From assembly GCA_009778185.1 (NCBI GenBank), contig WRKG01000293.1, forward strand, positions 1-33,905: a stretch of 33,905 bases of DNA, given 5' to 3'. Below the pieces are notes generated by a model that worked only from the letters and a program-made list of their open reading frames with translations, was not told the DNA's origin and searched no databases. Origin of the DNA: Bacillota bacterium. Lineage in GTDB: Bacteria > Bacillota > Clostridia > Lachnospirales > WQUN01. Below are positions 1,894 through 33,905 of this stretch, piece by piece. The translations under genes were made by a program, and so were the position numbers. Each line of letters begins with the position of its first letter. The stretch's first letter is position 1.

Positions 1894-3165
1894 TTAAGCC
1901 AATGCTTGTTGCAAATCCGCCAAAATATCGTCAATATGCTCTGTGCCGATTGACAGGCGAATGCTGTTGGGTTTGATGCCTTGATCGAGTTGATCTTCGG
2001 CGGAAAGCTGCGAGTGCGTTGTGCTTGGCGAGTGAATTACCAGCGATTTGCTATCCGCCACGTTCGCCAATAGCGAGAACAATTTCATTTTGTCGATAAC
2101 GGCTTTTGCGTCCACGTCCGAGCCTTTTACCTCAAACGAGAAAATTGAGCCCGCGCCGTTCGGAAAATATTCCTTATAAAGAGCGTGTTGCGGATGATTT
2201 GGCAAACATGGATGATGTACCGCCTCAACTTTTGGGTGCTTTTGCAGGAAATCCACCACTTTTAGGGCGTTCTCGACATGACGTTCCACTCGCAACGACA
2301 GCGTTTCCAGTCCTTGCAGGAACAAAAACGAGTGAAATGGGCTAATGGTTGCACCAGTATCTCGCATGATAGTAACACGCAACTTTATGATATACGCCAT
2401 TTTGCCAGCAATATCAGCAATAACAGCATTGTGCGCGCTGGGATTTGGTTGCGAAAGCCCAGGAAACTTGTCGTTGGCTTTCCAGTCAAAATTGCCAGAA
2501 TCCACGATAACGCCGCCAATCGCCGTGCCGTGTCCACCGATGAACTTTGTGGCGGAATGCACAACAATATCCGCACCGTATTCAATCGGACGGAGCAAAA
2601 ACGGCGTTGCAAAAGTGTTATCCACGATTAGCGGAATGCCGTGTTTGTGGGCAATTTCGGCTGTTTTTTTGATGTCAATTATCGTTGAATTGGGATTTCC
2701 CAGCGTTTCAATGAAGATTGCCTTTGTGTTGGGTTTTATAGCATTTTCAAAATTGGCGACATCTCCGCCGTCTACGAAAGTTGTTGTAATTCCGCTATCA
2801 GGCAAAGTGTGCGAAAACAGGTTAAAACTGCCGCCATAGATAAATTTATCGGAAACAATGTGGTCGCCAGCACGAGCAATATTTGTGATAGCGTAAGTAA
2901 CCGCCGCCGCACCTGACGAAGTCGCCAAAGCACCAACGCCGCCCTCGAGAGCCGCCATTCGTTGCTCAAAAACATCCGAGGTTGGGTTCATTAGCCGAGT
3001 GTAGATGTTTCCGCCTTGCGACAAGCCAAACCGCCCAGCAGCGGCGGCTGTATCTGGAAAGACATAAGCGGCGGTTGCGTAAATTGGCACAGCACGCGAA
3101 TCTGTGGCAGAATCTGGGTTTTCTTGTCCTGCGTGTAATTGTAGGGTTTCAAATTTGTAACTCAT
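1894..3165 (-). CDS. metY: O-acetylhomoserine sulfhydrylase / Cys-Met metabolism PLP enzyme
   Basis: ETLQLHAGQENPDSATDSRAVPIYATAAYVF...; PLP-binding region HSATKFIGGHGTAIGG; SIGTEHIDDILADLQQAL C-terminus. Confidence 0.93.
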   Translation of the reverse strand: MSYKFETLQLHAGQENPDSATDSRAVPIYATAAYVFPDTAAAAGRFGLSQGGNIYTRLMNPTSDVFEQRMAALEGGVGALATSSGAAAVTYAITNIARAGDHIVSDKFIYGGSFNLFSHTLPDSGITTTFVDGGDVANFENAIKPNTKAIFIETLGNPNSTIIDIKKTAEIAHKHGIPLIVDNTFATPFLLRPIEYGADIVVHSATKFIGGHGTAIGGVIVDSGNFDWKANDKFPGLSQPNPSAHNAVIADIAGKMAYIIKLRVTIMRDTGATISPFHSFLFLQGLETLSLRVERHVENALKVVDFLQKHPKVEAVHHPCLPNHPQHALYKEYFPNGAGSIFSFEVKGSDVDAKAVIDKMKLFSLLANVADSKSLVIHSPSTTHSQLSAEDQLDQGIKPNSIRLSIGTEHIDDILADLQQALA

Positions 3166-3219
3166 TTTTTTACCTCATTTCTGAAATTTTGGAATTTGAA
3201 TTTGTAAAATTCTGTTGAC

Positions 3220-3248
3220 ATTATAACATAATTTTGTTTGGTGTGCAA
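3220..3248 (-). promoter_or_regulatory. Candidate sigma-A promoter for metY (TTGCAC-17-TATAAT)
   Basis: Reverse strand TTGCAC (3248-3243), 17 bp spacer, TATAAT (3225-3220), upstream of the 3165 start. Confidence 0.55.
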
Positions 3249-3414
3249 CAAAAATTTTGGCAAGCACCGCAAATTAAATTTTGGCAAATCGATAAAATTT
3301 TAACATCTATAGTATGCAAACAAACAAAAAAGATATATAATAAAGCTAGAAAAATCACAAAAACATTAAACAGAATTTTATAAAAACAATTAAAAATAAT
3401 AAAAGGAGAAAAAA

Positions 3415-4956
3415 ATGAACCTAAAACCAATAATGGGCTGGTCAACTTGGAACAAATTCAAGCAAAATATCAGCGAGCAGCTAATCCTAGAGCAAGCGAA
3501 AGCAATGAAAAATTTGGGCTTGTTAGCCGCGGGTTACAGCTACATAAATTTGGACGACTGTTGGCAAGCCAGTCAACGCAACTCGGCTGGCGAGTTGCAA
3601 TTTGATGTGGGCAAATTTCCTAGCAAAGAGGGCTTTATAAAAATTCTCAATGAAATGGGATTTAAGGTAGGAATCTACAGCTCTAGCGGGGAATTGACTT
3701 GCGAGGATATGCCCGGCAGTTACGGCAACGAGGAAATTGATGCGGCAACTTTTGCCAAATGGGGAATCGAATATCTAAAATACGATTATTGCCATGTTGT
3801 GGATTTGCCCAGCGATCCGCATTACAACAAAACGGGTTTCGCAACCGAGCCGCCGCCGATTTTATATTTGGCGGCAACTCCAACGGACGGCAGCACAGCG
3901 GAAACCGCTATTTTAGCGGAAAACGCCCAACTTACCGAGCCAGCTTTTTTGCAGGACGGCAAAATAATGGGGCTAAATTGCACAAAAGCAAGTGCCCGAT
4001 TTGCCGTAAATGTGCCAACCGCTGGCGAATATCAAATTGCGGTGGGCTACGACAAAAAATATTCTGTTAATCGGCAATTTGTTTTGCTAACTTTAGCGGA
4101 CGGCTCTTCGCACGAGATGTGGTTTCCGCCAAGTAGCGGCTGGTATACGCCCGCGCGGGCAATGGTAAATATTCCGTTGCAGGCGGGCGAAAACGTTATT
4201 TTGCTGGCAAATCCCATAACTGGGCAAAAAGAAGATACCATTTTTAGGTACGCAAGAATGGGAAAAGCCCTAAAATCCGCCCAAAAAGCCGCTCCTATAT
4301 ATTTCTCCATTTGCGAGCATGGCAGAACAGAACCTTGGACTTGGGCGGCTAATTTTGCTCAATCGTGGCGGGTTTCGCATGATATTGCGCCAAATTGGGC
4401 GACAATTATGTCTTGTTATGAATCCGCCGCCGATTTGTGGCAATATCAAAAAGCGGGCGCATACAACGATCCAGATATGCTAGAAGTCGGCGTTGGCAAC
4501 ACAACCGACGACGAAAATTTAAGTCATTTTGTGCTGTGGTGCATGATGAACGCTCCGCTAATTTTGGGAATGGATATACAAAAATCAAGCGAAAACACGC
4601 TAAATTTAATCAAAAACGCCGAACTAATCGCTATTAACCAGGATTCGCTTATGTTGCAAGCATCTCGTGTAAAAATATTGGATAATAATGCAAATGGCGA
4701 AAATTTGGATTGCCTAATAAAGCCGCTATCAGACGGAACTGTCGCTATTTGCGTGTTTAATAAATCCGATAATCCCGCAAAAAATGTTGAAATTTCCACT
4801 AAAAATTTGCACGATTCACGAATTGATGATAAAATTCTGCACAATTTACATCATTACAAAAACTTAATAACGCACGAAGATTTTTCGCAAACGGCAGATA
4901 TATTGCGTATTGATGAAATAAATCCGCATGGAGTTGTGTTGTATAAATGTAGATAA
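3415..4956 (+). CDS. GH27 family alpha-galactosidase-like glycoside hydrolase with an inserted carbohydrate-binding-like module
   Basis: MGWSTWNKF, YINLDDCWQ, GIEYLKYDYC (nucleophile Asp), GAYNDPDMLEVG (acid/base Asp), NAPLILGMDI; segment about 3870-4280 resembles a CBM35/CBM6 beta-sandwich inserted in the catalytic domain. Confidence 0.88.
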   Translation: MNLKPIMGWSTWNKFKQNISEQLILEQAKAMKNLGLLAAGYSYINLDDCWQASQRNSAGELQFDVGKFPSKEGFIKILNEMGFKVGIYSSSGELTCEDMPGSYGNEEIDAATFAKWGIEYLKYDYCHVVDLPSDPHYNKTGFATEPPPILYLAATPTDGSTAETAILAENAQLTEPAFLQDGKIMGLNCTKASARFAVNVPTAGEYQIAVGYDKKYSVNRQFVLLTLADGSSHEMWFPPSSGWYTPARAMVNIPLQAGENVILLANPITGQKEDTIFRYARMGKALKSAQKAAPIYFSICEHGRTEPWTWAANFAQSWRVSHDIAPNWATIMSCYESAADLWQYQKAGAYNDPDMLEVGVGNTTDDENLSHFVLWCMMNAPLILGMDIQKSSENTLNLIKNAELIAINQDSLMLQASRVKILDNNANGENLDCLIKPLSDGTVAICVFNKSDNPAKNVEISTKNLHDSRIDDKILHNLHHYKNLITHEDFSQTADILRIDEINPHGVVLYKCR

Positions 4957-5272: not shown

Positions 5273-6475
5273 ATGATAAAAATAACAGGTTCACATAATT
5301 CGGCAATTTGCTACACAAACGAACTAGAAGCCACCGCATTATCGCAAATACAAGCCGTTTGCGACCGCGAAGACTTCAAAGATAGCAAAATTCGCATTAT
5401 GCCAGATGTTCACGCTGGCAAAGGTTGCACAATCGGCACAACAATGACTATAACCGACAAAATCGTCCCAGGAATGGTCGGCGTTGACATCGGTTGCGGC
5501 ATGGAAACCGTCAAAATACAGGAAAAAGAAATCGATTACGAAAAGCTAGATAACTTAATACGAGAAGAAATTCCAACGGGCTATAATATCCGAGATACGT
5601 TGCATCCTCTCAATGACGAGATAACTTTGGCGAATCTTAAATCGGCGAATCACGTTAATTTGACACGAGCCAGCCGAAGTATTGGAACATTGGGCGGTGG
5701 CAACCATTTTATCGAAGTGGGACAAGCCCAATCTGGCGATTTGTACATTGTTGTGCATTCTGGCAGCCGACATATCGGTTCGGAAGTTGCCGAATATTAC
5801 CAAGAAACCGCATACAAAACCCTTTGCGGAAATTCTCAAGCACAAATTGACGAAACCATCGCAAAACTAAAATCGGAGGGCAAACACAAGGAAATCCAAA
5901 GCACAATCACCGCCATGAAACAACTTGTCAACCCAAATCAACCAAAAGATTTATCCTATGTAACGGGAGAATTATTTGACGATTATATTCACGACATGAA
6001 AATTATTCAGCTGTTTGCAAAATTAAATAGAATCGCAATGACAAATATAATTCTCGAAGGAATGGGATTTACAGCGGTTGATAGATTTACAACTATTCAT
6101 AATTATATCGATACGGACACAATGATGTTACGAAAAGGTGCGGTTTCCGCCAAAAAGGGTGAACGCTTGCTTATTCCAATAAATATGCGCGACGGCAGTC
6201 TTATTTGCGAGGGCAACGGCAACGAAGACTGGAATAACTCCGCACCGCACGGAGCAGGACGCATTATGAGCCGCAAACAAGCCTACAGAGAGCTTTCCAT
6301 GGACGATTACCAAGCCGCAATGACGGGCATTTTCACAACTTCGCTAAATGAGCAAACTTTGGATGAATCTCCTATGGCGTACAAAAAAATGGAAGAAATT
6401 GTCGAAAATATAACGCCAACCGCAAAAATTATCAATCACGTACGCACAACTTACAATTTTAAGGCGAGCGAATAA
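5273..6475 (+). CDS. rtcB: RtcB family RNA ligase
   Basis: IRIMPDVHAGKGCTIGTTMTI, GVDIGCGMETV, LGGGNHFIEVG, VVHSGSRHIG, SAPHGAGRIMSR motifs. Confidence 0.93.
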   Translation: MIKITGSHNSAICYTNELEATALSQIQAVCDREDFKDSKIRIMPDVHAGKGCTIGTTMTITDKIVPGMVGVDIGCGMETVKIQEKEIDYEKLDNLIREEIPTGYNIRDTLHPLNDEITLANLKSANHVNLTRASRSIGTLGGGNHFIEVGQAQSGDLYIVVHSGSRHIGSEVAEYYQETAYKTLCGNSQAQIDETIAKLKSEGKHKEIQSTITAMKQLVNPNQPKDLSYVTGELFDDYIHDMKIIQLFAKLNRIAMTNIILEGMGFTAVDRFTTIHNYIDTDTMMLRKGAVSAKKGERLLIPINMRDGSLICEGNGNEDWNNSAPHGAGRIMSRKQAYRELSMDDYQAAMTGIFTTSLNEQTLDESPMAYKKMEEIVENITPTAKIINHVRTTYNFKASE

Positions 6476-6489
6476 AAAAAACAAAATAC

Positions 6490-6518
6490 TTGACATCTCG
6501 TTTTTTGTGATGTATACT
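6490..6518 (+). promoter_or_regulatory. Promoter of tRNA-Glu: TTGACA-17-TATACT
   Basis: TTGACA 6490-6495, 17 bp spacer, TATACT 6513-6518, 14 bp before the tRNA. Confidence 0.8.
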
Positions 6519-6532
6519 GGATTTATGGTTAT

Positions 6533-6604
6533 GGCCCATTGGTCAAGCGGCTAAGACGCGGCCCTCTCAAGGCTGAAACAGGGGTTCGATTCCCCTATGG
6601 GTCA
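6533..6604 (+). tRNA. tRNA-Glu (anticodon CTC), CCA not encoded
   Basis: GGCCCAT...ATGGGTC acceptor; anticodon stem CGGCC/GGCTG with loop CTCTCAA; T arm CAGGGGTTCGATTCCCCT. Confidence 0.9.
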
Positions 6605-6661
6605 TAAGTTTGTTGAGTTTGGAAAAAAATTAAAAAAAGTTGAAAATATTTTTGAAAATAC

Positions 6662-6690
6662 TTGACAACAAAATTTATCCATGATATTAT
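6662..6690 (+). promoter_or_regulatory. Candidate promoter of the infC operon: TTGACA-17-TATTAT
   Basis: TTGACA 6662-6667; TATTAT 6685-6690 (overlapping TATAAT 6688-6693). Confidence 0.6.
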
Positions 6691-6696
6691 AATAAT

Positions 6697-6812
6697 TACA
6701 AGTAGAGGTTCACGCTTCTCGCCTTCGCCGTTGGCAAAAGGCAATTACATACCGAAAGGTATTTAATTAGTGTGGGCTGTAGCCCATTTTTTATGCGGAT
6801 ATTTCGCTTTTG
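6697..6812 (+). promoter_or_regulatory. Structured infC leader (L20-leader-like attenuation region)
   Basis: Between promoter and SD: GCCTT...AAGGC stem (6721-6742), ATACC-GAAA-GGTAT tetraloop hairpin (6749-6762), and TGGGC-TGTA-GCCCA followed by TTTTTT (6773-6792), a terminator-like hairpin. Confidence 0.6.
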
Positions 6813-8588: not shown

Positions 8589-9878
8589 TTACATTCTGCC
8601 GTCAAACAGCATTCCGATGTTCATCATTTGGTTAAGTTGCGAAGTTTGGCGAGCGTTAAAGTTGAACATAGAATTATTAAATGGGTTGTCAGTTTGCACA
8701 AACGATGCAGGATTTCGTGCAGCGTCGCCAGAAAGCCGAGTTAAACGGTTCATAAAGCCAGAATTAGAGCCAACTCTGTCGCGGTTGGCAAAAGCCTCTA
8801 AATCGCCACGTTCTGCGGCGGCAGCCATGCGGTCTTCATCGATGGACATATTGCCGTCTCTGCCAACGGTGATTCCCAAGCGGTTGAGCGAAGCACCAGC
8901 CGAACGAGCCAAATTGGACAAATCTTGTTGCAAACGTCCGTTGCTTGCGCCTGATCTAGCGGAACTTAACAAGCTGTTAAACGAGTTTACCATGTGTCTG
9001 AAAGCGTTAATTTGGCGAGTTTCGTCGCGACCTTGCGTAATACGGGCTGTTCCAGTGCCTTCCAAACGAGCGGTTATTCCTGCACCCAATTCAACATCGT
9101 TCGAACGAGATGTTTGTAATGCTCCCGCAAAGCCACGATTTACCCTAAATTGGGCATCTTGTGCTTGTTGCGTGATATTGTTGATTCCCAAAGCGTTTAC
9201 CAAGCTGCCGCTAACTGTAAAGTTAGGTTGACCACTGTTTGCAACGCCTGTTTCGGACGATTGGAACACAAGCGAACTTGTGCCAGCGTTTGCGTTTCTG
9301 CTAACGGATGCTGTAACGCCAAGGTTTCTGTCGTTTACGGCGCTTGCGATACGTTGCTGTACGCTCTGCACAGAATCGCCAGAGCCAACTGTAAAGTTAA
9401 TATCAAATTGGCGACCGTCCATTGTAATTGAAAGAGTGTTAGCACCCAAGGTAAAACCTGCCGAAGTAGCCGATGCGTTAGAATTAAGAGCAGTTCCTTC
9501 GTTGCGTTGTGCGGTTGCAAGCTGTAAAACTTCAACGGACATTCCCGAAACGTTGTTATTACGCAAGCGGTCGGCATTTACGCCTTGAACGCTCAAAATG
9601 TCAGTATCACTGGATTCTGCACGAATTGCACCAAATGGCGATTCGCCGCGGCTATCGCCCAAGCCACGCATATGATTAAGCGAGGCAACCATCATGTCAG
9701 CACTTTGCCGCAAAGATACCAAACTATTGCGAAAGCCGTCAGATGTATTTGCATTGTTTATGCCAAAACCACCGCTACTACTAGATGTGTTGTTGGCACG
9801 GCTAGTTGTTGGCAACAAAGATACCATACTAGCGTTTGTGTTGACTCTTGTTGCGTTAAAACTTGTGTTTAAGTTCAT
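8589..9878 (-). CDS. Orphan FliD (flagellar cap)-like protein
   Basis: MSVEVLQLATAQRNEG; FTLGANTLSITMDGRQFDINFTVGSGDSVQSVQQRIASAVNDRNLGVTASVSR; LEGTGTARITQGRDETRQINAFRHMVNSFNSLLSSAR; LNRLGITVGRDGNMSIDEDRM, a FliD-like order of motifs. No flagellar neighbours. Confidence 0.6.
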   Translation of the reverse strand: MNLNTSFNATRVNTNASMVSLLPTTSRANNTSSSSGGFGINNANTSDGFRNSLVSLRQSADMMVASLNHMRGLGDSRGESPFGAIRAESSDTDILSVQGVNADRLRNNNVSGMSVEVLQLATAQRNEGTALNSNASATSAGFTLGANTLSITMDGRQFDINFTVGSGDSVQSVQQRIASAVNDRNLGVTASVSRNANAGTSSLVFQSSETGVANSGQPNFTVSGSLVNALGINNITQQAQDAQFRVNRGFAGALQTSRSNDVELGAGITARLEGTGTARITQGRDETRQINAFRHMVNSFNSLLSSARSGASNGRLQQDLSNLARSAGASLNRLGITVGRDGNMSIDEDRMAAAAERGDLEAFANRDRVGSNSGFMNRLTRLSGDAARNPASFVQTDNPFNNSMFNFNARQTSQLNQMMNIGMLFDGRM

Positions 9879-24651: not shown

Positions 24652-24741
24652 CAATAAATCCGCATATTACTTTCCTAGCGTTCTTCAATATGCCAAAATT
24701 ATGATAATATAAATAACAAAAGTTTACAAAAGGAGACGTAT

Positions 24742-25104
24742 ATGCTAAAATTAGATACACGCAAACATATTGAATGCACAGAAAAGGCATCCTGTTTGGC
24801 GACAATTAACAAAATGATAAAACTTGCCCAATTAGCACGACAATTTGGCGTTTTGGAACTGGAAAATATAATTACCGAAAATGACCATTTTATGCTAAAA
24901 ATTGGCATTGCTCTACTTGTGGACGGCGCAAGCCCAAAACAGGTGCAAGAAATTTTGAACAACCTCATAGTTACATCTTTTGCAACGGGCGAGGAATTGC
25001 TAAATCAGTTGATAATAGTGCAGAGCGTTTTGGCTATTCAAGAAAACTATAATCCACGGGTGCTAGAAACCCATTTATACGCTTTTTTGAATGAACTTAA
25101 TTAA
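24742..25104 (+). CDS. Small soluble MotA-cytoplasmic-loop-like protein
   Basis: INKMIKLAQLARQFGVLELEN...FMLKIGIALLVDGASPKQVQEIL parallels the MotA cytoplasmic motif and the N-domain of the next ORF; no transmembrane helices. Confidence 0.7.
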   Translation: MLKLDTRKHIECTEKASCLATINKMIKLAQLARQFGVLELENIITENDHFMLKIGIALLVDGASPKQVQEILNNLIVTSFATGEELLNQLIIVQSVLAIQENYNPRVLETHLYAFLNELN

Positions 25105-25139: not shown

Positions 25140-25925
25140 ATGTTAGATTTGAGGAGCAGGAAATACATCAAATGTCGTAAAGAAGACAAAGCGGAGTGCA
25201 TTCCAGTAATTGACGAAATTATGCGGTTGGCTGATGTTGCTCGCCGCGAAGGCGTTTTGAGCTTGGAAGATGAAGGCGAAAAATTGGAAATTCCGCTACT
25301 TAAAGCAGGAATCCGCCTGGTTGTTGATGGCACCGATCCCGAACTGGTGCAATCAATTTTAGAAACCAATATACTAACAACAGGCAAAACAGGTGCAGAA
25401 TTATTAACGCAGATTATAGTTTGCAATGGCGTATTAAGTATACAAAGTGGCGAAAATCCTACAATTTTGCTAACAAAAATGTTCGCATTTTTGGGCGAAG
25501 ATTACATGGACGTTTTATCCGAAAAATTGGATGCCTATCAAAAAGAGCAAATGTTATCTCTCAATGACCACACAATACATATGCCAGTTACGGCATCGGC
25601 TGTAAGCACGCCGTTTGAAGAAATTTTACATCAAATGGGCAACCGTGATATTCAGCTAGTTTTACGTGAATTAGAAACTCGCATAATTGCACTTGCACTA
25701 AAAGGTGCATCGCCAGCCTTGCGAGAGTACGTTTTGGACAATCATTCTCCGCGAACCGCAAATAATGTGCTACTTTTAATGGAAGCTCTTGGACCTGCGC
25801 TTGTCGCCGATGTGGAAAATGCCCAAAATGCGGTGCTTGAAACGGTAAAACGCTTGGAAGATTCTGGCGAAATAATTGTCGTTAATCCCAAACGTTTAGA
25901 GGCACATCAAACTATACGGTTTTAG
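25140..25925 (+). CDS. MotA-loop-like domain fused to FliG C-terminal-like domain
   Basis: N: IDEIMRLADVARREGVLSLEDE...LLKAGIRLVVDGTDPELVQSILE (MotA-like). C: FEEILHQMGNRDIQLVLRELETRIIALALKGASPALREYVLDNHSPRTANNVLLLMEALGPALVADVENAQNAVLETVKRLEDSGEIIV (FliG_C-like). Confidence 0.78.
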   Translation: MLDLRSRKYIKCRKEDKAECIPVIDEIMRLADVARREGVLSLEDEGEKLEIPLLKAGIRLVVDGTDPELVQSILETNILTTGKTGAELLTQIIVCNGVLSIQSGENPTILLTKMFAFLGEDYMDVLSEKLDAYQKEQMLSLNDHTIHMPVTASAVSTPFEEILHQMGNRDIQLVLRELETRIIALALKGASPALREYVLDNHSPRTANNVLLLMEALGPALVADVENAQNAVLETVKRLEDSGEIIVVNPKRLEAHQTIRF

Positions 25926-27191: not shown

Positions 27192-28181
27192 TCAAATCAT
27201 AACCTGCACGGCTTTATCCAAAATTTTGACAACACGCAGGGCTTGTTCTGCGCCAGTTAGCGAATCTGTGCCGTTTGTAATGCAATCTGCAAAATGCTCA
27301 ACGCTATTTTTTACGACATCTTCCTGTGGAATATACGGAGCAATCATATCGCCAGTCCTGGATTTGAACTCGTAAACGCCGTATTCATCGTGGGGTTCGC
27401 GGTGGATTATTCCGTGGTCGTAAATTGCTAATTTGTCAACGTTTTTCATATCGTCAAAAATTAGCATTTTTTTTGTGCCGCCGATTACCGTTTGCCGCTC
27501 TTTTAATGGAGAAATCCAGCTAGTTTTTATATGTGCCAAAAATCCGTCATATTTCATGGTTAGATATGTAAGCACTTCCTGGTTGCCATAACGTTTTTCG
27601 CCAACTGCACTTACGCCGATTGGCTCTTTTCCGTTGGAAAGATAATCGATGACGGCTAAATCGTGAACAGCTAAATCTAACATTGCGTTCATATCTGGAC
27701 GGATTGGGCCCAGGTTTACTCGGCTGCCGTCGTAATAGATAATATCGCCTAATTCGCCCATTTCGTACATTTTTTTTACGTATTTTATTATGGGATGATG
27801 CACCATAATGTGATCGCAATGCACAACAAGCCCTTTCGATTTTGCCAAATTGCAAATATCTTCCGCCCGTTGAGAGTTGGTTGCAATGGGTTTTTCGATG
27901 AATAAATGCTTGCCAGCATTCAAAATATCGAGGGCAATATCATAGCTAAACTCGGCTTGCGTTGCTACTGCAAAAGCATCTACCTGCGAATCGGTCAAAA
28001 AATCTCGGTAATTTTTGGAATATGCGACATTATCTCGGTACAACAAATTAGCCCTGTTTAAGGCGGCTTCGCTAATGTCAACGATTGCGTGCAGGTTGGT
28101 TTTGGTGGATGCCATGATGTTTCGTGCAACGTTTGGTCCCCAATAACCGTAACCTATGTGAACTATGTTAATATTTTGCAT
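27192..28181 (-). CDS. Gfo/Idh/MocA oxidoreductase, WbpB-like UDP-sugar dehydrogenase candidate
   Basis: INIVHIGYGYWGPNVARNIMAS; HLFIEKPIATNSQRAEDIC; LAVHDLAVIDYL; position next to WbpD- and WbpE-like genes. Confidence 0.88.
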   Translation of the reverse strand: MQNINIVHIGYGYWGPNVARNIMASTKTNLHAIVDISEAALNRANLLYRDNVAYSKNYRDFLTDSQVDAFAVATQAEFSYDIALDILNAGKHLFIEKPIATNSQRAEDICNLAKSKGLVVHCDHIMVHHPIIKYVKKMYEMGELGDIIYYDGSRVNLGPIRPDMNAMLDLAVHDLAVIDYLSNGKEPIGVSAVGEKRYGNQEVLTYLTMKYDGFLAHIKTSWISPLKERQTVIGGTKKMLIFDDMKNVDKLAIYDHGIIHREPHDEYGVYEFKSRTGDMIAPYIPQEDVVKNSVEHFADCITNGTDSLTGAEQALRVVKILDKAVQVMI

Positions 28182-28193
28182 TTTAGTTCCCTT

Positions 28194-28742
28194 CTAATTT
28201 GGGTTATTTGTAAAATTGGGATTTTTTTTGTTGCAGTGGTCGCAAATATCGCTGTGCAAGCGGTTGCCGCATTCGCAAACCCAGCCAATAATTTTAGCAG
28301 GATTTCCCACAACTAAAGCATTAGCGGGAACATCTTTTGTAACAACGCTACCTGCGCCAACCATGCAAAATTCTCCCAAAGTAACGCCGCAAACTATTGT
28401 AGCGTTTGCTCCGATAGATGCACGATTTTTTACGACAGTTGGCGTAACTTTCCAATCGGCGTTTTCGGCACGAGGAAACATATCGTTGGTAAAAACAGCG
28501 TTTGGTCCAACAAAAGCACCATCGCCAATGGTAACGCCCTTGTAAACAGATACTCCATTTTGAATTTTAACGTTATTCCCTATTATAACGCCGCTATCGA
28601 AATATGTATCTTTGCTGATAATGCAGTTAGTTCCGATAATTACATCTTCGCGGATTTGCGAGTTTATCCAAACTTTTGTGCCGTCGCCAATTTGCGCCTT
28701 TTCGGAAACGTGCGCAAGCGGATGTATAAATTTCTCCATCAT
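28194..28742 (-). CDS. Left-handed beta-helix N-acetyltransferase (WbpD-like)
   Basis: Hexapeptide repeats (IGDGTKVW, VIIGTNCIIS, VIIGNNVKIQNG, VTIGDGAFVGPNAVFTND); C-terminal CECGNRLHSDICDHC. Confidence 0.92.
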   Translation of the reverse strand: MMEKFIHPLAHVSEKAQIGDGTKVWINSQIREDVIIGTNCIISKDTYFDSGVIIGNNVKIQNGVSVYKGVTIGDGAFVGPNAVFTNDMFPRAENADWKVTPTVVKNRASIGANATIVCGVTLGEFCMVGAGSVVTKDVPANALVVGNPAKIIGWVCECGNRLHSDICDHCNKKNPNFTNNPN

Positions 28743-29824
28743 ACAAACTCGTTTACTACCTGTGCAACGGTTTTTATTTCGTCGTCCGTAAGGGCAGGAT
28801 GCACAGGAATTGACACAATTTGCGATTTTATTTGGTTCGCTATAGGGAAATTTGTATCAAAATTAAAATGTTCGTAACATTTTTGTTCGGGAATAGTTAT
28901 AGGATAATGTATGCCATGCCCGATGTTGTTTTTGGTTAAATGGTCGACAAAAGCGTCGCGCTTGCCGTCATGGATAAGCAGACAATATTGATGATAGCAA
29001 TGTTTTACGTTTGGCAAAACGGTGGGCAATGTAATTATGGGATTTTGGATATTTTTATCGTAATATTGTGCAATTTGGATTCGCCGTTCGTTAAATTTAT
29101 CGAGTTTTTCAAGTTGACATAATCCTATTGCGGCGGAAATATTTGTCATTCGATAATTGTAGCCGATTTCGTTGTGATAATAGCGAATTTGCATTCCGTG
29201 ATTTATTAGCAATTTTGCCTTTTCGGCGATTGCCTGGTTGTCAGTTACGATAATTCCGCCCTCCGAGGTTGTCATGTTTTTAGTGGGATAAAAACTAAAA
29301 GCGGCGGCTGTTCCAAAACTGCCAGCTTTTTTGTTTTTGTAGGTTGCACCGTGTGCCTGTGCAGAATCCTCTAATAATAGCACTTTGTACTTTTTGGCAA
29401 GTGCAACAAAAGCATCCATATCGCAGGGATGCCCCAATAAATGGACGATTAAAATTGCCTTTGTGTCGGGGTTTTCGATTAGCTTTTGCTCAACATTTTC
29501 GGGAGTTATGTTAAAAGTGGTTGGATCAATATCGGCAAAAATGGGCGTTCCGCCAACGTAAACAATGCAATTAGTGGACGCAATAAAAGAAAACGGAGTT
29601 GTAATAACTTTGTCGCCTTTGCCGATTCCTATTGCACGCAATAAAATTTCCAGTGCAGTTGTGCCTGAAGAAGTTGCAACGCCGTATTGTACGCCAATGT
29701 ATCGTGCAAAGTGATTTTGAAATTCTTCGGTGATTGCACCGCTTGCTAGCATTCCGCTGTCTAAAACTTGCTGAATTGCTTGTATTTCTTTTTCGTCAAA
29801 AGTTGGTTTTGCTATGGTTATCAT
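28739..29824 (-). CDS. DegT/DnrJ/EryC1 PLP aminotransferase (WbpE-like)
   Basis: HFARYIGVQYGVATSSGTTALEILLRAIGIGKGDKVITTPFSFIAS; FSFYPTKNMTTSEGG; ATGA overlap with 28194-28742. Confidence 0.94.
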   Translation of the reverse strand: MITIAKPTFDEKEIQAIQQVLDSGMLASGAITEEFQNHFARYIGVQYGVATSSGTTALEILLRAIGIGKGDKVITTPFSFIASTNCIVYVGGTPIFADIDPTTFNITPENVEQKLIENPDTKAILIVHLLGHPCDMDAFVALAKKYKVLLLEDSAQAHGATYKNKKAGSFGTAAAFSFYPTKNMTTSEGGIIVTDNQAIAEKAKLLINHGMQIRYYHNEIGYNYRMTNISAAIGLCQLEKLDKFNERRIQIAQYYDKNIQNPIITLPTVLPNVKHCYHQYCLLIHDGKRDAFVDHLTKNNIGHGIHYPITIPEQKCYEHFNFDTNFPIANQIKSQIVSIPVHPALTDDEIKTVAQVVNEFV

Positions 29825-29872
29825 TTTTTCGTACCTTCCTAGTTATTTTAACACCATCCTAGTGCTTTGTGG

Positions 29873-31492
29873 TTACATAAATATATTCGCCATATTCATT
29901 ATAAGATTAACAGGTTGTACAATATTTCCAAAAATTTCGATTTGTTCGGCAAGGTTGATTTTTTGGGCTATTTCGGTAAAATTTTTGTTGTACTTTTTGG
30001 CAACGGCAAGTACATCTATATAAATTAGTGGCAGAGATTCTTGTTGCAAAAAATAATTTAGTAACTCATTTATATTATAACTTGCAACTTGGCTTTCGTC
30101 AAGAAATAATCGAAGTTGCTGAAGTTTAATATATGGGCTGTTTTGGTTTGTTGTGGTGGCTAAAATATTTTTTGCTAGGTTGATTTTGGAGATATTTTCT
30201 TGTGCGGATATTTCTAATTCTATTGTAGTAATTATATCGATATATTGTTTATCGGTCGGCTGATATTTTTCGGCGAAATGGCTGTGTAGGTTTGCCAACA
30301 TTTGTGGATTGTGGTTGATTATTGCGGTTGTTAGGCTTTTGTAGCATTCGTATTGGTTTATGGTAACGGTAGAATCAGCTGTTGTGCGTAACATTGGCAA
30401 ATTTTGTAGATAGTCAATGGCGTTTTCCAAAAGATTAGCTGTTATGAAGGTTTGTAGTATTTTTTGGATAAATTCAATGTCTGGTATGTTGGGTAATAAT
30501 GTATAGGCTAAAATGCCATATAATTCGTTGTTGTCAACTTGTTTTTTGAAATTATACGCCTCTATTAGAGCTTTGTTTGCATCCACCAATTTATTTTGTT
30601 GCAGGAAAGATAAACCTTGTTGATATTTGAAACAATAAGCCGTTTCGGCTAATTTTGACTTTGGCACTTTTTCAAAATATTCTTCTACAATATCAATTAT
30701 TTTTTGATATTGATTTGTTTGTGCGTATATATATATGTACGTATGCACAAATAAAGGGTAAAAAAGTGGATAGCTATACGGATATTTTTCGTCAAATTCG
30801 GCTTTTTGGGCTAAATTTATGCCTGTATCGGCGTATTTAAGACAAGTTTCAACATCGTGAGTATGTATAATATATGATAAAAACAAAAAAATATTTTTAT
30901 AATTTGTTGGATTTTCCTCTAAAATAGCTAACATAGAACGCATATATTTTTCGTCCTTGCCTTTTTCTTTTGATATAGCTGAATCATTTCCGTAATGTAA
31001 GATAGTGGAGTTTAAGTTTTTAGTTGGTTCTTCGAACGGTAATAGACGTTCATGAATTTTGTCATGCCATTGCATACCTTCAATTATTTTGAAAAATCGC
31101 AAAGGTTTATTTATTGTTGGGCTATTTTGAATATCTGGCTCTTCTGTTCGTTTTACAGTGGCTGTGCCGTAATTTTTGTATTCGCCGCTATTAAAAAAAT
31201 CAATTATATTTTGTACATTTTCAAATATTTCATCGGGATCTAAAACAAGAAACCACTCGCCTTTAGCACGTTCAAAACCTTGTTGCCTTGCCCAACCAAA
31301 ATCATCCCGCCATTCTATTTCGAAAACTTTGTTTGTAAACTCTTTAGCTATTGCTATCGAGTTATCGGTTGAGCCTGTATCGTGAATTATAAGTTCGCTG
31401 TCAACGTTATCTAAAATGGGCTTTATTGCGGTTAGACAATCTCGCAAAAAACGCTCTTCATTTTTCATTATCATTCCTATTGTTAAAAGCAT
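29873..31492 (-). CDS. GT2 family glycosyltransferase with TPR-like C-terminal region (copy 1)
   Basis: MLLTIGMIMKNEERFLRDCLTAIKPIL..DTGSTDNSIAIAKEF..GEWFLVLDPDEIF. Confidence 0.9.
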   Translation of the reverse strand: MLLTIGMIMKNEERFLRDCLTAIKPILDNVDSELIIHDTGSTDNSIAIAKEFTNKVFEIEWRDDFGWARQQGFERAKGEWFLVLDPDEIFENVQNIIDFFNSGEYKNYGTATVKRTEEPDIQNSPTINKPLRFFKIIEGMQWHDKIHERLLPFEEPTKNLNSTILHYGNDSAISKEKGKDEKYMRSMLAILEENPTNYKNIFLFLSYIIHTHDVETCLKYADTGINLAQKAEFDEKYPYSYPLFYPLFVHTYIYIYAQTNQYQKIIDIVEEYFEKVPKSKLAETAYCFKYQQGLSFLQQNKLVDANKALIEAYNFKKQVDNNELYGILAYTLLPNIPDIEFIQKILQTFITANLLENAIDYLQNLPMLRTTADSTVTINQYECYKSLTTAIINHNPQMLANLHSHFAEKYQPTDKQYIDIITTIELEISAQENISKINLAKNILATTTNQNSPYIKLQQLRLFLDESQVASYNINELLNYFLQQESLPLIYIDVLAVAKKYNKNFTEIAQKINLAEQIEIFGNIVQPVNLIMNMANIFM

Positions 31493-31519
31493 GGTGGATT
31501 CTCCTTGTTATTTTTAATG

Positions 31520-33127
31520 CTACATAAAAATATTCGCCATATTCATTATAAGATTAACAGGTTGTACAATATTCCCCAAAATTTCGATTGATTCGGCAAG
31601 GTTGATTTTTTGGGCTATTTCGGCAAAATTTTTGTTGTACTTTTTGGCAACGGCAAGTACATCTATATAAATTAGTGGCAGAGATTCCTGTTGCAAAAAA
31701 TAATTTAGTAACTCATCTATATTATAACTTGTGGCTTGGCTTTCGTCAAGAAATAATCGAAGTTGCTGAAGTTTAATATATGGGCTGTTTTGGCTTGTTG
31801 CGGTGGCTAAAATATTTTTTGCTAGGTTGATTTTAGCGGAGTTTTCTTGTGCGGATATTTCTAGTTCTATTGTGGTAATTATATCGATGTATTGTTTATC
31901 GGTTGGTTGATATTTTTCGGCGAAATGGCTATGTAGATTTGCCAACATTTGCGGATTATGGTTGATTATTGCGGTTGTTAGACTTTTGTAGCATTCGTAT
32001 TGGTTTATGGTGATGGTGCGTTTTGGCAATTTGCGAGTCATTGATAAATTTTGCAAATATTCGATAGCATTTTGCAAAAGGTTGGATAACACAAACGTTT
32101 CCAATATTTTGGAAATAAATTCTTCGTCCGAAATGATTGGCAACTGAACAAAAGAATACGCTGGCGATAACTTGTGATTATCCATTTGGTCTTTTAATTT
32201 ATATGCTAATAAAGCGGATTTGTTGGCTTCCAAAAATTTATGTTCGTTTATGTAGGCTGTAATTTGCATATATTTTAGCAAAAAAGCGTTATCTAGTAGT
32301 TTAGATTTTGGCGTGTTTTCAAAGTAATTTGCAACAAAATCGATGGCTTTTGTATATTGTTGGTTTTCAACATACATTGCAGTCAACAACTGTGCAAAAG
32401 AAGCGTACATAAGCGGACTTCGCAAATATTCTTCGTGCAATTCGGTTTGTTTGGCTAAATTAAAGCCCATTTCGAGGTACTCGATAGTAATTTGCGGTTG
32501 ATTTATATAATTAGTCGCCAAAGAAAATATATTTGTATAGTTAGTCGGATCTTCTTTGTAAATATTTTGCACAAGATTAAAATAAAGTTGGCTTTTTTTT
32601 TCAGAAATTTCGCCTTGCATAAGCCCATAATGTAACATTAAGCAATCTAACTGTTTGACAGGCTCTTCGTAAGGAGATAGATGTTCATGTACTTTATCAT
32701 TCCACTGCATACCGTCTATAATTTTGAACAAGCGCAATACTCTACCTATAATTTTGTTTTCACTAGATTCAGGATTATTATCCCTGTTGACAATAGCAGC
32801 ACCGTATTTTTTGTAATCGCTACTGTTAAAAAAATCAATTATTTCTTGAACATCTTCAAAAATTTCATCGGGATCTAAAACAAGAAACCACTCGCCTTTA
32901 GCACGTTCGAAACCTTGTTGTCTTGCCCAGGCAAAATCGTTGCACCATTCTATTTCAAAGACGTTATCAGTAAACTCTTTGGCTATTGCTATCGAGTTGT
33001 CCGTTGAACCTGTATCGCAAATTATCAGTTCGCTGTCAACGTTATCTAAAATTGGCTTTATTGCGGTTAGGCAATCTCGCAAAAAACGCTCTTCGTTTTT
33101 CATTATCATTCCTATTGTTAAAAGCAT
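31520..33127 (-). CDS. GT2 family glycosyltransferase with TPR-like C-terminal region (copy 2)
   Basis: Same N- and C-terminal blocks as copy 1; divergent middle. Confidence 0.9.
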   Translation of the reverse strand: MLLTIGMIMKNEERFLRDCLTAIKPILDNVDSELIICDTGSTDNSIAIAKEFTDNVFEIEWCNDFAWARQQGFERAKGEWFLVLDPDEIFEDVQEIIDFFNSSDYKKYGAAIVNRDNNPESSENKIIGRVLRLFKIIDGMQWNDKVHEHLSPYEEPVKQLDCLMLHYGLMQGEISEKKSQLYFNLVQNIYKEDPTNYTNIFSLATNYINQPQITIEYLEMGFNLAKQTELHEEYLRSPLMYASFAQLLTAMYVENQQYTKAIDFVANYFENTPKSKLLDNAFLLKYMQITAYINEHKFLEANKSALLAYKLKDQMDNHKLSPAYSFVQLPIISDEEFISKILETFVLSNLLQNAIEYLQNLSMTRKLPKRTITINQYECYKSLTTAIINHNPQMLANLHSHFAEKYQPTDKQYIDIITTIELEISAQENSAKINLAKNILATATSQNSPYIKLQQLRLFLDESQATSYNIDELLNYFLQQESLPLIYIDVLAVAKKYNKNFAEIAQKINLAESIEILGNIVQPVNLIMNMANIFM

Positions 33128-33147
33128 GGGGATTCTCCTTTATTGTT

Positions 33148-33905
33148 TTAGTTAAACAGCATTTTACGCATTGTCGGAATATCAGAATCAGCCGGATTAA
33201 TTTGTGCGTAAGTTTCAAAAATTTGTTGTGCTTGCGTTACGTTGCCTGTGTTTAGAATTTCGTATATCATGGATTTTAGGCGGTCGATTTCTTGTTTTAG
33301 CTGTGCTTGCGGATTTTGCTCAACTTCAATTTGGCTGTTATCTATTTGCTGTATGTAATGCTGATATAATGGAGCATATTTTTCAGCAATTTGTAGATAC
33401 TCAGTAAAATTTATATCTTCTTTTTTATTTTTATATGCTTTTGCTAAATAAAAAATTGCAATGTGTTCGTTAGGCAATAAATCAATATTTTCCTCGTTAT
33501 ATGTATTTGTGGAGTATAACATTTTACAATAACGGTGCGAAATATCCACAAACAACTCAAATATTGGTTGACTTTGCGTTTCTTCCAATTTATTTTTTAA
33601 TGTGTTTACAATTTTATACAAAAACCGAATGGGATTTATTTTTTTGTCAAGTACAAATATTTGAGTGTTCAATTTTTGATATATTTCTGTGAAATATTTA
33701 CCATATTGTATAGCAATTACAAGCACATCTGCATATATTATTGAAATTTCTGTTTGTTGTGCAAAATAAGCTAAACAGTTATCTATATCGTAATTTTGCG
33801 TATTCAATTTGTCAATATTTAATTGGATTCGTTGAAACATGACAAATTGACTTTCGTTATTATTTTTTTGCAATATAATATTTGCCAAATTAGTTTTAGT
33901 GGCTT
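33148..33905 (-). CDS. Third tandem GT2-TPR paralog, C-terminal part (open at window edge)
   Basis: LANIILQKNNNESQFVMFQRIQLNIDKLNTQNYDIDNCLAYFAQQTEISIIYADVLVIAIQYGKYFTEIYQKLN matches the C-terminal block of copies 1 and 2 (LAKNILATTTNQNSPYIKLQQLRLFLDESQ...); reading frame continues past the window end. Confidence 0.75.
   Translation of the reverse strand, partial: ATKTNLANIILQKNNNESQFVMFQRIQLNIDKLNTQNYDIDNCLAYFAQQTEISIIYADVLVIAIQYGKYFTEIYQKLNTQIFVLDKKINPIRFLYKIVNTLKNKLEETQSQPIFELFVDISHRYCKMLYSTNTYNEENIDLLPNEHIAIFYLAKAYKNKKEDINFTEYLQIAEKYAPLYQHYIQQIDNSQIEVEQNPQAQLKQEIDRLKSMIYEILNTGNVTQAQQIFETYAQINPADSDIPTMRKMLFN

Follow-up and report, generated by a model that had tools for sequence, protein, structure and literature searches.

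The contact between MotA and FliG is the site of torque generation in the flagellar motor. On the stator side it depends on R90 and E98 of MotA, and on the rotor side on R281, D288 and D289 of FliG as primary and K264 and R297 as secondary residues, with MotA E98 and R90 pairing with FliG R281 and D289 (PMC6079164). In the solved stator complex, two neighbouring MotA cytoplasmic domains hold FliG_C between them (PMC11302681). The element LSQxEIDALL at the N-terminus of FliM binds CheY-P (PMC6700473). A soluble protein of natural origin with both the MotA and the FliG face would be a handle on this contact.

Such a protein is encoded in the stretch of DNA analysed here (the window), 33,905 nucleotides of contig WRKG01000293.1 from a Bacillota bacterium of the order Lachnospirales. 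A first-pass annotation made from the letters alone had marked a 261-amino-acid ORF at 25140-25925 as an apparent stator-rotor chimera, and its position, plus strand and length were borne out. The ORF has an ATG start with the Shine-Dalgarno-like sequence AAAGAAAGGG 5' of it and is a real gene. A shorter paralogue directly upstream had been missed. The features of the locus are:

24700..24710 (+): candidate extended -10 box TATGATAATAT, housekeeping-type promoter, by consensus match alone
24742-25104 (+): upstream paralogue, soluble MotA cytoplasmic domain alone, 120 aa, by profile matches
25140..25925 (+): soluble MotA(cytoplasmic)-FliG_C fusion gene, 261 aa, by profiles, relatives and purifying selection
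25179..25511 (+): MotA cytoplasmic domain, residues 14-124, by two-stretch MotA matches, residue map and fold (8ucs_C)
25512..25613 (+): linker, residues 125-158, from the predicted model, with residues 140-155 at low confidence
25614..25883 (+): FliG_C torque domain, residues 159-248, by Pfam PF01706, 1qc7, fold and residues

The C-terminal half had been taken for FliG_C, which agrees with Pfam (PF01706, residues 159-246, E = 3e-22), with the solved sequence of T. maritima FliG_C (1qc7, 4.6e-18) and with the predicted fold, which Foldseek superposed on 1qc7_B with an rmsd of 1.1 Å over 87 columns and a TM score of 0.91 by target. The N-terminal half matched NCBIfam MotP/MotA models at 2e-17 and 2e-16, in two stretches, and PDB MotA chains at 3e-14, again in two stretches. 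In this half the TM2-TM3 loop (about residues 14-82) is directly joined to the post-TM4 tail (about residues 86-126): TM1-TM2 are absent, the TM3-TM4 hairpin is cut out, and the two cytoplasmic pieces are linked by a few residues. The original reading as the MotA loop is therefore right as to the MotA cytoplasmic domain and too narrow as to the loop, since the post-TM4 tail is included too. The Pfam MotA model did not match the fusion protein; we assign the N-half to MotA because of the NCBIfam models, the PDB sequences, the fold and the tree described below.

By hydropathy the protein has no membrane segment, as had been noted, and the four transmembrane helices of MotA stators are missing; its maximum over 19 residues is 1.30, compared with 2.60 for the MotA of the same genome. 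FliG_N and FliG_M are absent from the 261 residues and present in the genome's true FliG, and the linker, which reads STPF, lacks an intact copy of the MFxF motif found ahead of FliG_C in FliG. Pfam detected neither an EpsE-type glycosyltransferase nor a YcgR PilZ domain. The AlphaFold2 model has a mean pLDDT of 72.6 and a pTM of 0.47, at which the relative placement of the two domains carries no confidence. The predicted fold matched both kinds of chain in the MotAB-FliG complex 8ucs; the MotA chains were found with a Foldseek probability of 1.00 and E = 0.01, the superposition over the whole chain being poor. Taken together, the profiles, the fold, an architecture conserved among relatives and purifying selection give good support to a soluble stator-rotor fusion. 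The protein shows that the MotA cytoplasmic domain, though split in sequence by the membrane hairpin, is able to form a compact soluble unit.

The MotA half keeps both rotor-contact residues, R35 corresponding to MotA R90 and E43 to MotA E98. The FliG half keeps K188 (K264) and R205 (R281). A change in the torque helix had been pointed out and is real: K-E-E-M of FliG reads L-L-L-M here, so that D288 and D289 have become LL (L212/L213) next to the retained R281 and K264; R297 is likewise replaced by L. LL is found at D288/D289 in the window protein and in its counterpart in the sister genome G001, whereas DD or EE persists in several other relatives, and an acidic residue stands at these positions in 7-8 of the 12 better-conserved relatives. 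By this comparison, the loss is peculiar to the clade of the window protein. Across 27 soluble proteins, E98 (0.89) and R90 (0.85) are the best-kept charges of the MotA half (rank p = 0.004), ranked among the 22 MotA positions with an invariant charge in membrane MotAs. In the FliG half, the torque charges are not preferentially kept across the family (p = 0.34). A rotor-like partner thus seems to constrain the MotA half more strictly than a stator-like one constrains the FliG half. The suggestion that the protein was repurposed with loss of torque charges accordingly applies to the window clade and fails for the family, in which most of the better-conserved relatives keep the acid; the preferential retention of R90 and E98 points to continued motor contact and not to repurposing away from it. 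It might also be that these two residues are kept for folding reasons. R90 is lost and E98 partly lost in G107, G059 and G011, which are more divergent, so that not every member can bind FliG in the usual mode.

The upstream gene ends 35 bases before the fusion gene, lacks FliG_C and is 45% identical to the fusion gene. The two are probably carried on one transcript. G001 has the same pair, with a fusion 77% identical to that of the window, and the TATGATAATAT box also precedes its counterpart of the first gene. No flagellar sigma-28 promoter scored above the shuffled background before the gene pair, and the membrane motA controls likewise had none. The neighbours of the fusion gene are asnS, the MotA-only paralogue and a WecG-type glycosyltransferase. 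The statement that flagellar neighbours are lacking is correct for the adjacent genes: no motB lies beside the fusion gene, and the motAB of the genome sit on a different contig. A normal motor set is encoded in the same genome (MotA, MotB, FliL, FliM; FliF, FliG, FliH, FliI and FliJ), named by eye from ORF translations and, for FliG and MotA, also by search.

Elsewhere in the window, a 429-aa protein at 8589-9878 (-) resembles by eye a filament-cap (FliD-type) protein; no flagellar model in Pfam or NCBIfam matched it. A sugar/glycosyltransferase cluster at 27192-33888 (-) encodes a UDP-GlcNAc 3-dehydrogenase-like oxidoreductase, a hexapeptide acetyltransferase, a PseC-like aminotransferase (326 bits, under the cut-off) and two closely alike GT2 proteins, and is possibly a surface or flagellin glycan locus.

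Relatives were sought in 38 genomes of the family, 392 of the order, 388 of the class and 398 of the phylum. The scans returned 28 soluble MotA proteins in 17 genomes, all within one order, mostly in the window's own family and a few in two other families. In the class and phylum draws none was found outside the order at 1e-30, a limit that divergent forms could escape. FliG_C or a FliG_C-like remnant follows in 23 of the 28, with scores from 3e-30 (G036) down to below the Pfam cut-off (G007, G022); four consist of MotA only and one carries a receiver domain. A contig search with a four-row alignment recovered three relatives and two ordinary membrane MotAs, and nothing else. The nearest named relatives lie on WRKK01000354 ('Defluviitaleaceae bacterium Th196P1bin9'), WRKH01000295 (same sample) and JAIRVD010000096; judging from the isolate codes, these would be termite-gut MAGs, and the genome of the window may be another of them. 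Defluviitaleaceae belongs to Lachnospirales in the NCBI taxonomy. In a phage collection, no MotA-FliG fusion was detected. One record, MT835480.1 ('Bacteriophage sp.', 75 kb, human faeces; H21), gave a FliG_C-like match of 32.6%; filed as phage, it may be bacterial sequence.

In a tree of the MotA half, all 28 soluble proteins fall on one side of a branch supported at 99/93, against ten membrane MotAs from the same genomes. The FliG-half tree is less resolved and mostly agrees with it, and places G036 and the long-linker protein of G030 near true FliG. From these trees, a single origin of the soluble MotA domain appears likely, and a single origin of its joining to FliG_C probable. Between the window and G001, dN is 0.14 and dS 1.18, with dN well below dS in both halves; the fusion gene is under purifying selection. 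The family-specific residues C20 and LGExY are conserved, and the ORFs are intact, with good ribosome sites and no frameshifts. The relatives' genes are orphans in varied contexts, without fli, mot or che neighbours. One divergent MotA-FliG_C gene (L064:2188-2973, G022) lies directly before a BrxC/BrxD (BREX) gene at 2983-3555. In L059:7303-8475 (G030) and L069:1-969 (G023), an AraC-type HTH stands in frame upstream of MotA-FliG_C. We regard a three-part fusion as unsafe, given a perfect internal Shine-Dalgarno sequence with ATG (AAAGGAGGACATATG), and the in-frame junction may separate two genes. An apparent stand-alone FliG_C in G023 was set aside, since it is the far end of a gene that is broken at a contig end.

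Other relatives are joined to chemotaxis parts. The protein at L063:6747-7880 (-) of G010 consists of a soluble MotA domain and a receiver domain (Pfam 4e-27), followed by SQAEIDHII near the C-terminus; among solved proteins, the receiver is closest to CheY (1.7e-33). Its gene is followed on the same strand by one for a ClpP-like SDH-type serine protease (5727-6710). Plasmid pTS2 of Treponema saccharophilum (L107, NZ_AP025290.1) encodes three neighbouring hypothetical proteins, each with a soluble MotA domain and, at the C-terminus, a FliM-N-like EIDxLL motif, which in one of them reads SQDEIDALL:

1720-2265 of pTS2: soluble MotA protein with C-terminal EIDxLL motif
2694-3230 of pTS2: soluble MotA protein with C-terminal EIDxLL motif
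3689-4546 of pTS2: soluble MotA protein with C-terminal EIDxLL motif

The same plasmid stretch holds leucine-rich-repeat proteins, and a fourth, partial match lies at 179655-179846 of the record. A strict version of the FliM-N-like motif was found in 4 of the 32 soluble MotA proteins, where shuffled sequences would give 0.0045; the figure serves as a guide and not as a test, the pattern having been written after these proteins were seen. The clostridial loci contain 1651 other ORFs, and in these the motif occurs only near the start of seven, those checked being FliM. In the tree, the Treponema branch falls apart from the clostridial soluble branch; it is long, and the comparison contained no Spirochaete membrane MotA. 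Soluble MotA domains are repeatedly joined to rotor or switch parts, and on this topology the joining to switch parts may have arisen twice, in Lachnospirales and in Treponema.

We give an even chance to the reading that the window protein is a soluble mimic of the stator face, tied to the stator-contacting domain of the rotor, that acts on the flagellar motor from the cytoplasm. Somewhat more tentatively, we propose a new class of soluble stator mimics with at least two origins (Lachnospirales and Treponema), working as a clutch or brake dependent on switch state. Through R35 and E43, the MotA half would dock on the FliG torque helix in the C-ring, and there compete with or block real stators as a clutch, brake or decoy stator, so that the motor would be slowed, disengaged or biased. 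The attached module, FliG_C in the window protein and a CheY-type receiver or FliM-N-like peptide in relatives, would couple docking to the state of the rotor or switch. Since two adjacent MotA domains grip one FliG_C in the solved complex, the MotA-only protein at 24742-25104 may supply the second jaw on FliG_C. We infer the docking of the MotA half on FliG, the direction of its effect and the partnership with the upstream paralogue. If true, the fusion may reveal how imitation of the stator lets cells brake or disengage their motors. The variants with a CheY receiver or FliM-N suggest that the torque face can come under direct chemotactic control.

The link to the motor is drawn because of co-occurrence with flagella, retention of R90 and E98, and the CheY and FliM-N partner modules. 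Co-occurrence with fli and mot genes had been suggested as a check, and every one of the 17 carriers (the 16 of the order scan and G011) is flagellated as judged by FliG_M, the window's genome having a normal motor set. FliG_M is found in 16/16 order-scan carriers compared with 242/392 order genomes (p = 4e-4, kinship not controlled). Against a motor role stand the orphan genes without fli, mot or che neighbours, the lack of a sigma-28 promoter and the absence of bias in the FliG half (p = 0.34). Such orphan loci in varied contexts would also suit a protein no longer tied to the motor, one with a signalling or scaffold function that uses the MotA and FliG_C folds as protein-protein modules in a pathway unrelated to rotation. 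The two modules would pair head to tail with one another, or the fusion with its upstream paralogue. The loss of D288/D289 in the window clade, the degeneration of both halves in G107, G059 and G011 and the in-frame AraC-type HTH of one lineage agree with this. We nevertheless consider it unlikely, given that R90 and E98 are the best-kept charges, that no carrier lacks flagella and that CheY and FliM-N modules recur; the AraC junction itself may be one between two genes.

Of the roles named at the outset (regulator, clutch/brake or assembly factor), the regulator, clutch or brake is by inference the best reading, and the assembly factor becomes a rival that we hold to be rather improbable. As an assembly factor or chaperone, the MotA half would cover FliG_C, or the FliG_C half MotA, protecting subunits or ordering assembly, much as FlgX protects stators in Campylobacter. 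A soluble protein with both binding faces that is confined to flagellates would fit; its sporadic presence, with carriers making up 14/31 FliG_M-positive genomes of the family, argues that it is not generally needed for assembly, and the joins to CheY and FliM-N point to switching instead. Sporadic presence and the long branches of some members could also be expected of a functionless, decaying duplicate of motA and fliG. That explanation is very improbable in view of the low dN relative to dS in both halves, the intact ORFs with good ribosome sites and no frameshifts, and the conserved C20 and LGExY.

We found no description of a natural stator-rotor fusion or of a soluble MotA adaptor in the open-access literature, subscription papers being mostly outside that scope. 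The text of a paper on MotAB evolution contains none of the words 'fusion', 'fused', 'soluble' or 'truncated'. To us the architecture is new in kind, and its function may turn out to be that of a familiar type of protein, a motor brake or clutch. The MotA-FliG_C and MotA-chemotaxis fusions are probably undescribed regulators of the flagellar motor.

With the MotA/PomA/MotP stators (PRK08124, PRK06926), the fusion protein has in common the cytoplasmic torque-contact domain with R90 and E98; it differs in the absence of the four membrane helices and the MotB partner and in being joined to FliG_C. It shares with FliG (PF01706, TIGR00207) the C-terminal torque domain with K264 and R281, and lacks FliG_N, FliG_M and an intact MFxF motif, with D288/D289 and R297 replaced. 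The flagellar clutch EpsE and the brake YcgR/MotI resemble it in the proposed role, as soluble proteins acting at MotA or FliG; EpsE is a glycosyltransferase and YcgR/MotI are PilZ proteins, and neither is homologous to it. The LIC10244 family of Leptospira (NF047717) aligns to fusion residues 10-150 without a gap for the membrane hairpin, at 42.7 bits against a cut-off of 475 and with the last 100 residues of the family unaligned; its match covers the MotA domain in the fusion and in the upstream paralogue alike. From this alignment, LIC10244 proteins may be further soluble MotA proteins. Their function is given as unknown in the NCBIfam entry, and they are up-regulated in a perRA/perRB double mutant. 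Closest in design is the engineered C. sporogenes MotA-FliGc fusion (PDB 8UCS, PMC11302681), which has the same two domains in one chain and in the same order. That fusion is man-made, contains the full membrane MotA and was built for structure solution, whereas the window protein is natural and soluble: it is the natural counterpart of the engineered fusion with which the MotA-FliG contact was solved.
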